NCBI GenBank assembly: GCA_021775715.1 | Contig: JAJFHI010000174.1 | Location: 1-36,344, forward strand | From: Hyphomicrobiaceae bacterium | GTDB taxonomy: Bacteria; Pseudomonadota; Alphaproteobacteria; Rhizobiales; Hyphomicrobiaceae | Direction: 5' to 3' | Length of the DNA stretch: 36,344 bases | Shown here: positions 1 to 36,344 of the stretch, piece by piece | Layout: every line of letters begins with the position of its first letter | Numbering within the stretch: position 1 is the stretch's first letter | Notes under the pieces: model-generated | Told to the model about the DNA's origin: nothing | Seen by the model: only the letters and a program-made list of their open reading frames with translations | The model's database searches: none | Translations under genes and position numbers: made by a program

Positions 1-212
1 AGCGCCAGGAGCGCCGCCTGGAGCGCCGAGAGCGCCGCCTGGAGCGCCGCCGAGAGCGCCGAGAGCGCCGACTGGAGCGCCGCCGAGAGCGCCGAGAGCG
101 CCGCCTGGAGCGCCGTCAGGAGCGCCGAGAGCGCCAGGAGCGCCGCCAGGAGCGCCGCCGAGAGCGCCGAGAGCGCCGTCAGGAGCGCCGCCTGGAGCGC
201 CGAGAGCGCCGA
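1..212 (+). repeat. Tandem minisatellite of 9-bp and 12-bp units, AGCGCC + AGG/GAG or GCC(TGG/GAG/AGG)/GACTGG/GTCAGG
   Basis: Direct reading; every unit is a multiple of 3 nt; continues into 36273-36344. Confidence 0.95.
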
Positions 213-18738: not shown

Positions 18739-20691
18739 CTAATACGCGGCCTGATACGGAATTTGTTCGAGCATGGCGCGTTCGCGGGCGGCTTCGGTTG
18801 CCTCGCGTTGCGTCTCTATCGATGTCTTCTGCGTGTCGGCTCCAGCCTTGGCGGCTCTGGCCTCACTATACGACGCATCAGCCGAAATCTTGCGGATCTC
18901 TTGCGTCTTGCGGGCCTGCTCAAGCTGCTGCTCAGCCTGTTGCGCCTGCTGTTGCTCTGGCGATTCTTGCTGTGACAGGCCCTGGATGATCTCTTGCGAG
19001 AGTGACGACGGAAGCGGCGAGTATTCGACCAACTTCGCCCAAACATCCATGCCGATAGGCGCGTCTTTCAGGAGCGGCATCATCTGCACCAGCATGCCCC
19101 AGACCTGTTGCTTTTGATCTGCGTTCATGGGTGCTTCGTCTACCACTACGTCAAACTTCGCGGCTCCAGGCTGGCGCATAAGCGGGATGTATTGCTGCGT
19201 ACCGTTCTTGCCCTGGATGCGGATCAAGCGGCCGTCTGAGACGTAGCGATTGATGAAGTCGAGAAGCACCCGGCCTTGAAGTTTGCGGTAGCGGCGAAGC
19301 GAGTCAAAAAAGACCGCTAGGATCGCATAACCAGACTTTTTGCGTTGCGCCTCCAGGACGCCAGCTTGCTCGCGCTGCACCAACCCCAGCATTTCCAAGT
19401 TGATGCCCGAAACCTGCGGGAGGCTTTCGGTGGCAAACTCCAGAAGCTGCCCCATGCCGGCAGGCATCGCGGGCGGATCTTTCGGCCTGATACGATCCAG
19501 CATGCCGGGCTTAACCTCGACCATGCTGTCGGGGCGGCTCCACTGGTCTTCAGCATCGCGCTTGTTGACGAACGCGCCCGTCTCATACATCAACCCGCCC
19601 TTGGCGTTGGAGTTGATGATGTGCAGGAGCTGCGAGAGCCATTTGTTCGCCCACATCTGCGGGTCACACATGGCTTTTACGATTCCATACCAAGTGTTTT
19701 TGTTGCGGTCGCGCTTGCCCGTGATGCACTGGAACGTAAAGCCAGACGGAAGCTCTTTTTTCTCAATAAGCACGTTGCCGGAATAGATCGCCTGATAATG
19801 CACGCGCCTGTCGTGCTTGACGGCCTGCGGAGGTTGCGCGCCATTCATCAGCGCCATGTTTATCAGCGCGGCGTATTGCTCTTTCGAGACGGCTTCAAGA
19901 TCGCCGTTCGGGCCCGGGACGGCGTAGCCCTTTTCAAGATCCCACCACTGCATCTGGACGACGGTAATCTCCCGGCCATCCTCGCGCTTGTTTTCGTCGC
20001 GGCCCCAAGTGTAGTCATCGCGCGGGCTTGAGTAGTTGTTGCTGGACGTGTCTTCAAGCGTGTCTTGCGCCTGGCTGAGAACAGCGTCGAACTTATTTTC
20101 CCAGCGGGCTTTGAAGTCCTGCTTTTCGTATTTGCGCACCCTGAACCTAAAGCGTGAATCCGTGAGGTTGCGCTTGTTGGCGTTCGGGTCCCAACCCATT
20201 TCCAGCGGATCAATGCGCGGCATGAGCACGTCGCCGGCCGGGTCATCCTCATACGACATGTGAGTTTCAGTCCAACCCATGCCGCAAGTGATCGTGTCAA
20301 GGAACGCATCCGACTCCTCGTCTTCGGCGTCGGCGTTGTCGCGGATGAAATCAGCCGCGGCTGTGTAAACCTCGTTGGCTTGGGCATCGCCAAGCTCGCG
20401 CGGGTAATACGTGACGGCCTGTCTGTTGAGCACTTCCGCGCCGGCGACGGCATCCACCATCGGGCCGACGCGGTTGAACGTGATCGGCTGGCGCATCTGG
20501 CCCATGAGAGACGCTTTATCGTCAGCAGACCATTGTTCGCCACTGACCAGATCATACCATTTCTTCGCGTCGTCGCGCCAAGTCGAATGCTGTTCCTTTG
20601 ACGCCTTTTCCCAGCGATGCAAGCGCTTGAGCAGGTCCGACGTATCGTCGTCGTCGCCGTCGCGCTCGATCTCGTTTTCGTTGTCGTTCAT
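18739..20691 (-). CDS. Portal protein, P22-like
   Basis: LHRWEKASKEQHSTWRDDAKKWYDLVSGEQW...QPITFNRVGPMVDAVAGAEVLNRQAVTYYPRE; ATGA overlap with TerL stop sets the start at 20691. Confidence 0.85.
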   Translation of the reverse strand: MNDNENEIERDGDDDDTSDLLKRLHRWEKASKEQHSTWRDDAKKWYDLVSGEQWSADDKASLMGQMRQPITFNRVGPMVDAVAGAEVLNRQAVTYYPRELGDAQANEVYTAAADFIRDNADAEDEESDAFLDTITCGMGWTETHMSYEDDPAGDVLMPRIDPLEMGWDPNANKRNLTDSRFRFRVRKYEKQDFKARWENKFDAVLSQAQDTLEDTSSNNYSSPRDDYTWGRDENKREDGREITVVQMQWWDLEKGYAVPGPNGDLEAVSKEQYAALINMALMNGAQPPQAVKHDRRVHYQAIYSGNVLIEKKELPSGFTFQCITGKRDRNKNTWYGIVKAMCDPQMWANKWLSQLLHIINSNAKGGLMYETGAFVNKRDAEDQWSRPDSMVEVKPGMLDRIRPKDPPAMPAGMGQLLEFATESLPQVSGINLEMLGLVQREQAGVLEAQRKKSGYAILAVFFDSLRRYRKLQGRVLLDFINRYVSDGRLIRIQGKNGTQQYIPLMRQPGAAKFDVVVDEAPMNADQKQQVWGMLVQMMPLLKDAPIGMDVWAKLVEYSPLPSSLSQEIIQGLSQQESPEQQQAQQAEQQLEQARKTQEIRKISADASYSEARAAKAGADTQKTSIETQREATEAARERAMLEQIPYQAAY

Positions 20692-21452
20692 GCGGCCCAC
20701 GCGCTCCCGCTGTTGCGAGATTTCTTACGATTGCGCGCATAGCGGTCCTCGACCTCAACGGGAAGCTCTGTCGTGGCATAGCGCTGCATCATCACGGCGA
20801 TACGAGTTGCCGACATGAGATCGTCGCGCTCCTTAATGATTTTGCCGTCTTTGCGATGATACATGCGAAATTCTTCGAACCATTCATTGAGGTTTGAAAA
20901 CACCTTGAAGCGCCCGGTCATCATGCGTTCCAGGATCATGATAATGCCGGCCTCAGTGCCAAATCCGCCTTCTGCGTGCGTCGCGTGCTCGCGCCACATA
21001 TTGAGGCCGCAGGAGCGGTATTGATCGGCAAGCTGGATCGCTGACCCTTTGTCGTGCTGCAATCCATCGTGTGGCCATGCGCACGGTATCCAAGCGCCCC
21101 ACGGATTGATGGCCGCGGCGTGAATGACGGGCACCGCCTCTTTCTGGCGATAGCTTTTCGTGACGAAAATCGTGTCTGCATCCCGGTCGATGGAAATGTT
21201 TACGGCAGCGAACGGGTGATTGAATCCGAAATCTAACCCGTTGATCTGGACATAGTGAGCAGGGATCGGAAACGGATCGCAGGCAATCAACTCCTCTGAG
21301 ATCGGGAACACGCGGCCAGATCCGAGCATCGGAATGCCTTTAGCGCGTGCGTCCCGCTCATGCGGCGGGTAGCTCGCCCACAATTCGTCTTTCTGTTTTT
21401 TCGTGAGATGCGGTACGTCATCCCATGTCGCTTGAACGCAGAATTTAGTCAC
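20688..21452 (-). CDS. Terminase large subunit, C-terminal nuclease half (254 aa; GTG start)
   Basis: TKFCVQATWDDVPHLTKKQKDELWASYPPHERDARAKGIPMLGSGRVFPI...INGLDFGFNHPFAAV. Confidence 0.85.
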   Translation of the reverse strand: MTKFCVQATWDDVPHLTKKQKDELWASYPPHERDARAKGIPMLGSGRVFPISEELIACDPFPIPAHYVQINGLDFGFNHPFAAVNISIDRDADTIFVTKSYRQKEAVPVIHAAAINPWGAWIPCAWPHDGLQHDKGSAIQLADQYRSCGLNMWREHATHAEGGFGTEAGIIMILERMMTGRFKVFSNLNEWFEEFRMYHRKDGKIIKERDDLMSATRIAVMMQRYATTELPVEVEDRYARNRKKSRNSGSAWAA

Positions 21453-22161
21453 CGTCCATCTCCAGGAACATCATCGCCACGTCAGTTGCGCCTTCCAACG
21501 GAGTGAATGTGCAGAGCGTCATGCCGTCTACTGTCATCGTTCTGGTGAGGCATTCGGTGTAAACATCCATCGGCGGTTCTTCGTCGAGCCAGACGACGTG
21601 CTTTGCCGTGCCTTGAAATTTCTTGCGCCCCTGGTCGTAACTCTTGAAGCCCACTTGGCTGATACCGCCTGAGACGTGGCGGACTTTGGCGATGTCCATA
21701 GCGCCGCTGATGCCCGCGCGCTTTGATGGCTCGCCTATGATGTCATCGCCGGGAACGAGGCCCGTTCCGAGTTGGCCAATCGGTCCCATGAGCGCGAATT
21801 GAATGATGTCTCGCGTTGTTTCGCCGGTATCGCCAGCCGCCCAACAATCAACCGGATCGTTGAATCTCCTGCCTTCCCACCAGTCAGGATATTTGCCTGT
21901 GAGGTGTATGGCCGTCTCGTATCCACCGACTCCCCACGTCTTGCCGACACGGTTTGCCGCCATCATGCAGCGTTCGCTAAACTCCGCGCCGGCCGCAAAG
22001 AATTGCAGGTGCTTGGCGTATAGTTCACGCCTTAACGGGCCGTCTGTCGGATAAAGGTCGAACAGCTTCCGCCTCGACTTCCGGCGTTCTTTCTCCTCCA
22101 AGAGCGCCAGCAACTCCCGCTTTTCCGACGAGCTGAGAGAGTCGAGATTCAAGCTGGTCAT
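21445..22161 (-). CDS. Terminase large subunit, N-terminal ATPase half (238 aa)
   Basis: Walker A-like MMAANRVGKTWG and Walker B-like HVVWLDEEPP; ends EMDGD*. Confidence 0.85.
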   Translation of the reverse strand: MTSLNLDSLSSSEKRELLALLEEKERRKSRRKLFDLYPTDGPLRRELYAKHLQFFAAGAEFSERCMMAANRVGKTWGVGGYETAIHLTGKYPDWWEGRRFNDPVDCWAAGDTGETTRDIIQFALMGPIGQLGTGLVPGDDIIGEPSKRAGISGAMDIAKVRHVSGGISQVGFKSYDQGRKKFQGTAKHVVWLDEEPPMDVYTECLTRTMTVDGMTLCTFTPLEGATDVAMMFLEMDGD

Positions 22162-30420: not shown

Positions 30421-30896
30421 CCCGCAATAACGATATAAAGTTGGAAACTAGCCGTTTTGATGGTGATCTATATTTTGCGTCACGCGGATCATGTCCGCTG
30501 GGCCGGATCTATCGAAATGATAACGGGTTGCTGTACGCAAGACGCCATAATGATTTAGTTAGCGAGAGCTTTGCAAGCATAAATGACGCCGTGATTTATC
30601 TCGGCAATGGCCGTCGTCACATCCCTGGTTTTGCCGCTGCTCGATCCGTAATATTTGCGGCTGTCCCAAAGCCTCACATTATATTCAGATCAACAGTTTT
30701 GCTTCTGGTATCGGCTTGCTGCTACACAATGGCCCCTATCTTGGGGTCTTGGGCATCAACCGCAGGTCTTGTTGCACTCGTTGTTGCAGTCAATCAGCTC
30801 CTAGCTACTAGCGTTTTGCTAGGCATAGACGATGCGTATAGGATTGTTGCAAATCGCTTTGGCTTGCCTTCGAAAGAAACGGGTGGCGAGCTGTGA
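30417..30896 (+). CDS. Membrane protein (159 aa)
   Basis: C-terminal hydrophobic segments (STVLLLVSACCYTMAPILGSW; TAGLVALVVAVNQLLATSVLLG); ATGA overlap. Confidence 0.6.
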   Translation: MTRNNDIKLETSRFDGDLYFASRGSCPLGRIYRNDNGLLYARRHNDLVSESFASINDAVIYLGNGRRHIPGFAAARSVIFAAVPKPHIIFRSTVLLLVSACCYTMAPILGSWASTAGLVALVVAVNQLLATSVLLGIDDAYRIVANRFGLPSKETGGEL

Positions 30897-31198
30897 ACGC
30901 TTTTTTCCACGAGAAACGCCGCGCGATGACACCGCGCCGGATTGCTGAGATATTTGCTCGCGACGACGGCCGTTGCCAATGCTGCAAGCGCAAACTCCGC
31001 GCCGGCGATGACTATGAAGTCGATCACGTGATAGCGTTGTCCAAGGGCGGGAGCGACGACGACACAAACTTGCAGATTTTATGCTCTGGCTGTCACGCCA
31101 TCAAGACGCCTGGAGACATTTCAGACGCGGCGAAATCAAAGCGCACTTACACAAAGGCCAAAGTTCCCGGCCGCTATAAGACAAGGTCTTTCCGATGA
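30893..31198 (+). CDS. HNH endonuclease (101 aa, GTG start)
   Basis: FARDDGRCQCCKRKLRAGDDYEVDHVIALSKGGSDDDTNLQILCSGCHAIKT. Confidence 0.85.
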   Translation: MNAFFHEKRRAMTPRRIAEIFARDDGRCQCCKRKLRAGDDYEVDHVIALSKGGSDDDTNLQILCSGCHAIKTPGDISDAAKSKRTYTKAKVPGRYKTRSFR

Positions 31199-34275: not shown

Positions 34276-34309
34276 GCCCCTCGCTACTCCCAGCAACGAA
34301 AGGCCCATC

Positions 34310-35800: not shown

Positions 35801-35828
35801 AATTTTTGACCAACGAAAGGCCGATCAG

Positions 35829-36344
35829 ATGACCCCACAACAACGCGAGGCTCGCATCAATCGGGCGAAGGCACACGCCGCCGCAGATCGTCTGCGGTCT
35901 GGATTTTACTCAGACGACATCTGCCACTCCATTGGCTGCTCTGTCGGCTGTGATGCGATTGATATTGCAGGATGGCAGGAGACCTACAAAAACCCACACG
36001 CAATTGTGGCTGCGCACGACGGCACTCCTGAATGGCTGGAGCATTTGCGGGATAGAATATTTGAGGGTCTCCCTTCACATCGGCGCGCTTGGTGGCACGT
36101 CTCACTGGCTGAGGCTCTGCCAGCCGATGTCGATTTGCAGCCTGCTTATCATCTCATCTGCATACGACTTCTGGAGCGGCAGCTTTCGCGCAGGACAGAG
36201 TGGGATAATACGGCATACGGTGATCAAGTGGCGGCTGCTCTTGAAAAGGTGATCGCGCATCATCGTGACCCAAGCGAGAGCGCCGCCGAGAGCGCCAGGA
36301 GCGCCGCCTGGAGCGCCGAGAGCGCCGCCTGGAGCGCCGCCGAG
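35829..36344 (+). CDS. N-terminal part of a junction-spanning ORF (continues at 55..276 if circular; ~245 aa in total): conserved-looking N-domain followed by Ser-Ala-rich repeats
   Basis: ATG at 35829 with AACGAAAGGCC 6 nt upstream; MTPQQREARINRAKAHAAADRLRSGFYSDD...PEWLEHLRDRIFEGLPSHRRAWWHVSLAEALPADVDLQPAYHL...HHRDPSESAAESARSAAW...; 516 nt = exactly 172 codons to the window end, no stop; absent from the ORF track because it is open-ended. Confidence 0.85.
   Translation, partial: MTPQQREARINRAKAHAAADRLRSGFYSDDICHSIGCSVGCDAIDIAGWQETYKNPHAIVAAHDGTPEWLEHLRDRIFEGLPSHRRAWWHVSLAEALPADVDLQPAYHLICIRLLERQLSRRTEWDNTAYGDQVAAALEKVIAHHRDPSESAAESARSAAWSAESAAWSAAE
36291..36344. repeat. 54-bp terminal direct repeat identical to 1-54
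   Basis: Base-by-base comparison of window start and end. Confidence 0.95.

Follow-up and report, generated by a model that had tools for sequence, protein, structure and literature searches.

Background

The closest known relatives of the protein described here are encoded by Xanthomonas phages: K1pha_60 of KPhi1 (APQ41939.1), phiXaf18_37 (QFR59591.1) and WYA89407.1 of XapPhi5. They share with it an N-terminal head (37-42% identical), a Ser-Ala array with E/R/W (also D and Q), a C-terminal AAWIEERxALFxSL helix and a place in the early region adjoining VapE. They differ in that their arrays are written in TCG/GCG rather than AGC/GCC, the proteins are longer (284-327 aa) and the phages are of an unrelated type (Beograduvirus and relatives). 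The closest heads are those of three IMG/VR proteins (L013, L014 and L034; 49% identical), which carry the same CSVGCDAIDI motif but differ in their C-terminal sequence (FKTIAEKLILEFAR) and in their array, which is degenerate and has few SAA units. Annotated members of this family are always named "hypothetical protein". A literature search found no description of the family, and ORF K1pha_60 is not mentioned in the KPhi1 paper under the terms tried. A family of unknown function, phrog_3416, gives weak co-linear matches around the head-array border and is matched by 5 of 60 family members. Membership in phrog_3416 was rejected, as the window head has no match to it and Ala-rich sequence accounts for much of the score.

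The window, by which we mean the whole 36,344-nucleotide stretch that was analyzed, is contig C84 of a 3.03-Mb, 469-contig MAG. Among its genes are those for portal, major head, terminase, RecT and exonuclease. The terminase region is similar to that of EBPR podovirus 1 (record of 36,122 bp). The window is likely a nearly complete podovirus-like phage genome binned with the bacterium. An earlier note on this DNA proposed that a gene for a protein of about 245 aa, with a Ser-Ala repeat, spans the two ends of the contig. Joining 35829-36344 to 55-276 does yield an ORF of 245 aa, ending at the stop codon 274-276 and consisting of the head, 21 Ser-Ala units and a tail (Table 1).

Table 1. Features of the array gene and of the contig ends in the window
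Feature	Position	Strand	Remarks
AACGAAAGGCC	35812..35822	+	directly upstream of the array gene's start codon
N-terminal head, residues 1-150	35829..36278	+	homology; AlphaFold2
His16	35874..35876	+	kept in at least 90% of 60 relatives
Asp20	35886..35888	+	kept in at least 90% of 60 relatives
Cys37-x3-Cys41 (CSVGC)	35937..35951	+	both Cys in 60/60 relatives
His57	35997..35999	+	kept in at least 90% of 60 relatives
Ser-Ala array, first part	36279..36344	+
Terminal direct repeat, right copy	36291..36344	+
Terminal direct repeat, left copy	1..54	+
Ser-Ala array, remainder	1..210	+	1-54 duplicates 36291-36344, new from 55; TRF periods 33 and 75
C-terminal helix EYVWIAEIVIDVFASIRKQST and stop codon	211..276	+	matches relatives' C-terminal profile

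A viral protein family with a conserved head

By sequence comparison, the window protein is one further member of an existing, undescribed and mainly viral family in which a conserved head is followed by a Ser-Ala-rich array and then by a short helix at the C-terminus. All of the family's head motifs (H-x3-D, GC-x2-GC, H, GxPxxL and DxxFEGL) are present in it, an in-frame, Ala-rich array of 3/4-residue units follows right after the head, and the C-terminal helix closes the protein. Family searches returned first 12 and then 211 confirmed viral matches, 80 of which were kept, plus 9 bacterial genome contigs. Members come from Xanthomonas phages and from dozens of IMG/VR contigs, and a few plasmids have the gene as well. 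Bacterial genomes rarely have the gene; it was found in 1 of 385 of the class, namely on the window contig itself. Phage proteins with a similar N-domain and Ala/Trp repeats had been mentioned in the earlier note, and the search of the N-domain that it called for recovered them in the Xanthomonas phages (head 42% identical, E 2e-16). Identity to IMG/VR proteins reaches 49%. Some viral contigs hold two family copies, either tandemly arranged or separated by tens of kb (L049/L050, L082/L091 and L054/L081). In other branches of the family (L080, L098, L101, L093, L066 and L078), the head is kept and YAADAA, LADLAYRAD or AAWAAR repeats stand in place of the Ser-Ala units.

The structure prediction that had also been called for gave a confident, mostly helical AlphaFold2 model of the head (pLDDT 91, pTM 0.79). 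Searches of the head sequence against Pfam, NCBIfam, PHROG and PDB gave no usable match and none above a curated threshold, and in a Foldseek search of PDB with the head model the best E was not below 4.5 (cut-off E 0.001). Against a viral structure library, the model matched one uncharacterized phage protein. The pattern of conservation suggests that the head may bind metal through His16, Cys37, Cys41 and His57 in a C2H2-like manner, and His16 is a possible metal or active-site residue. With its conserved Cys and His residues, confident predicted fold and lack of a PDB match, the head is a good target for structural and functional work.

The Ser-Ala array

Recounting the joined protein gave 21 SA units, in the order of unit lengths that had been reported from the translation: 4,3,4,3,(4,4,3)x3,3,(4,4,3)x2, followed by SA-EYVW. 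Serine periodicity is strongest at 3.61 residues, with a power of 20.7; in 500 shuffles of the residues it never exceeded 10.0. Across the family, unit length averages 3.7 residues, which is close to a helix turn, and ranges from all-4 arrays to 3/4 mixtures; the array of L093, with its 3-residue units, fits a helix stripe poorly. In a full-length model of a relative (L018), helix is predicted with low confidence for the array and with high confidence for the last 20-30 residues. The proposal that the array is helical thus gains support from the serine period and from the models, although the low confidence of the L018 array means that a rod is not established by that model. Pairing of E and R at i+3/4 in the array is not above chance, and so a designed salt-bridge pattern was not found. 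A membrane stalk, suggested as one form the helix might take, is unlikely from the composition of the protein, which has no hydrophobic transmembrane segment (maximum 19-residue Kyte-Doolittle mean 1.1; array mean -0.27).

The array had further been described as an 11-residue, or hendecad, repeat. This stands for the window, where the 4,4,3 order is stronger than in shuffles of the unit order (p about 0.003), in part a consequence of 33-bp copies in the DNA that reiterate it. It does not extend to most relatives, which lack 11-residue periodicity: the 4,4,3 order goes beyond shuffles (p<0.05) in just 4 of 25, and 5 of 25 have arrays purely of 4-residue units. Hendecad coiled coils have the local 4,4,3 spacing of serine in common with the window array; they differ from this family in that the spacing is not kept in relatives and that the interface positions would be Ser/Ala instead of large hydrophobic residues. 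The hendecad is probably a local outcome of 33-bp duplication and not a rule of the family.

At the DNA level the arrays are strikingly uniform. The median entropy of alanine codons is 0.09 bits in arrays versus 1.60 in heads, and it is lower in 43 of 44 arrays. In the window array, every serine is AGC (22/22) and every counted alanine is GCC (30/30); other window genes use each of these codons 28% of the time. Ten Ser/Ala codon pairs occur among the arrays (for example AGC/GCC, TCG/GCG, TCC/GCC, TCA/GCA, TCT/GCT and AGC/GCG), yet the peptide S-A-A-[E/R/W] stays despite these differences, with E/R/W filling 776 of 1178 variable positions. Because each array uses one codon per residue and the codons differ between arrays, the sequences show DNA that is homogenized within lineages and a peptide that is kept by selection between them. 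Length changes follow whole residues, as had been anticipated from the repeat. Arrays of unequal length follow near-identical heads in L095/L097 (247 vs 232 aa, a 15-residue, in-frame difference with 5' ends 99.8% identical), in the near-identical relatives L017/L019 (293 vs 259 aa, 34 residues, in frame) and in L077/L087/L089 (262/311/222 aa, in frame).

The same data bear on the idea that the array is neutral, self-expanding DNA within a gene, its peptide being without function and persisting since all three plus-strand frames are open. All three are indeed open in the window array, homogenization of the DNA is strong, and some relatives (L088 and L057) have frame-shifted or truncated ends. 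We consider this explanation improbable, however, given that the same frame and the same peptide recur across the ten codon pairs and that most complete arrays continue in frame to the conserved C-terminal helix.

We favor a model in which a junction gene of an undescribed family maintains fast-turnover array DNA under a kept peptide, which would serve as an adjustable helical spacer; we give it a probability of roughly 0.6. The array would be an alpha-helical spacer or self-association rod linking the putative metal-binding head to the end helix. Through slippage between units of 9, 12 and 33 bp, or unequal recombination between them, the rod would change by whole residues, and a helix would be expected to tolerate such changes in length.

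Genomic neighborhood and possible roles

Genes neighboring the family members encode DUF2800/PD-(D/E)XK, Enc34 ssDNA-binding, YqaJ, AAA_24, cytosine methylase and VapE proteins. Neighbors were clustered after removal of overlapping ORFs, as antisense and low-complexity ORFs otherwise dominate, and this clustering found no neighbor common to all family members. An attempt to follow synteny across the join via portal genes shared by the window and relatives' contigs yielded distant portals only. In the early region of the window, an HNH endonuclease gene lies at 30893-31198. The large terminase of the window is split into two minus-strand ORFs (20688-21452 and 21445-22161) that overlap by 8 bp and match phrog_5653 and phrog_31467/phrog_2; in two related phages the terminase is one ORF of ~434 aa, and the split in the window may be a frameshift, a sequencing error or a true split.

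The element AACGAAAGGCC, found before the array gene, has further plus-strand copies at 34295, 34987, 35633 (1 mismatch) and 801, which places them close to where the early region ends and shortly beyond the join. There are 6 sites in all, one of them on the minus strand, compared to a shuffle mean of 0.84. It is probably a shared ribosome-binding or leader element.

Since relatives adjoin recombination, replication and methyltransferase genes and not virion genes, and since the exonuclease and RecT genes of the window lie on the same strand as the array gene, we tentatively suggest an early accessory protein that acts on the host, in takeover or counter-defense. More doubtful is a version in which the protein is an effector with a new head fold and the array a fast-evolving helical ruler, whose length or E/R/W order would be a tunable specificity module. 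A virion or tail component with the array as a fiber-like shaft seems less plausible again. The array does give weak, low-complexity matches to tail-fiber and tape-measure PHROGs, but these are confined to the array and vanish when the head is searched alone. The neighbors in relatives are early DNA-metabolism genes, and the portal, head and terminase genes of the window (13.9-22.7 kb) are on the strand opposite to the array gene.

The join and the probable break in assembly

The contig ends form a 54-bp exact terminal direct repeat, and this 54-mer is absent elsewhere in the window. The frame survives removal of the duplicate, as had been claimed, and it is equally kept without removal because 54 is a multiple of 3. 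With three frames open in the array, an open frame alone is weak evidence for the join, and the tail is more informative. When a profile built from the C-termini of relatives is compared with the last 32 residues of the joined protein, which include flanking array, the score is 27 bits, and none of 2000 shuffles or 219 window ORF ends does as well. For just the last 22 residues the score is 10.5 bits, which is matched by 1 of 5000 shuffles and by no other of 550 reading-frame ends in the window. Against the C-terminal profile of complete relatives, the post-join tail is the top-ranked match in the window. Relatives in intact phage genomes and viral contigs have head, Ser-Ala array and tail within one uninterrupted ORF. 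The two contig ends are very probably halves of one gene, and the join right, because the head and tail of one family sit in one frame at opposite ends; this argument is independent of reads. An apparent joining, through similar repeats, of ends from different repeat copies or genomes is very unlikely: there is low-complexity sequence at both ends, exact internal repeats reach 32 bp at most and relatives' contigs likewise stop in such arrays, but the overlap is exact and unique, neither array nor gene was found on any other contig of the MAG, and the two sides bear the family's head and tail in a single frame.

The earlier note had the gene hidden by linearization. It is split by the contig ends, as stated, but linearization is probably an incomplete account. 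As the array makes up ~0.6% of the contig, a circle opened at an arbitrary point would seldom be cut within it. Among 81 viral family loci, the contig stops at most 600 bp downstream of the head in 15 and at most 600 bp upstream of it in 2 (p 0.001). The GenBank records of XapPhi1 and XapPhi2 also terminate inside the array, and that of XapPhi1 resumes at the next gene. The array itself probably stopped the assembler, which would have been unable to resolve the repeat or strain variants of it. For this reason, 21 units are probably a minimum, and the true array here may be longer.

Conclusions

This widespread family of phage proteins probably goes under-counted, and its members truncated, because assemblies break at its own repeat. 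If the helical ruler were true, phages would reshuffle a module in frame against changing hosts, with the peptide rebuilt repeatedly from different codons. In the array family, nature provides a clean example of DNA evolving in concert while the peptide pattern stays fixed.
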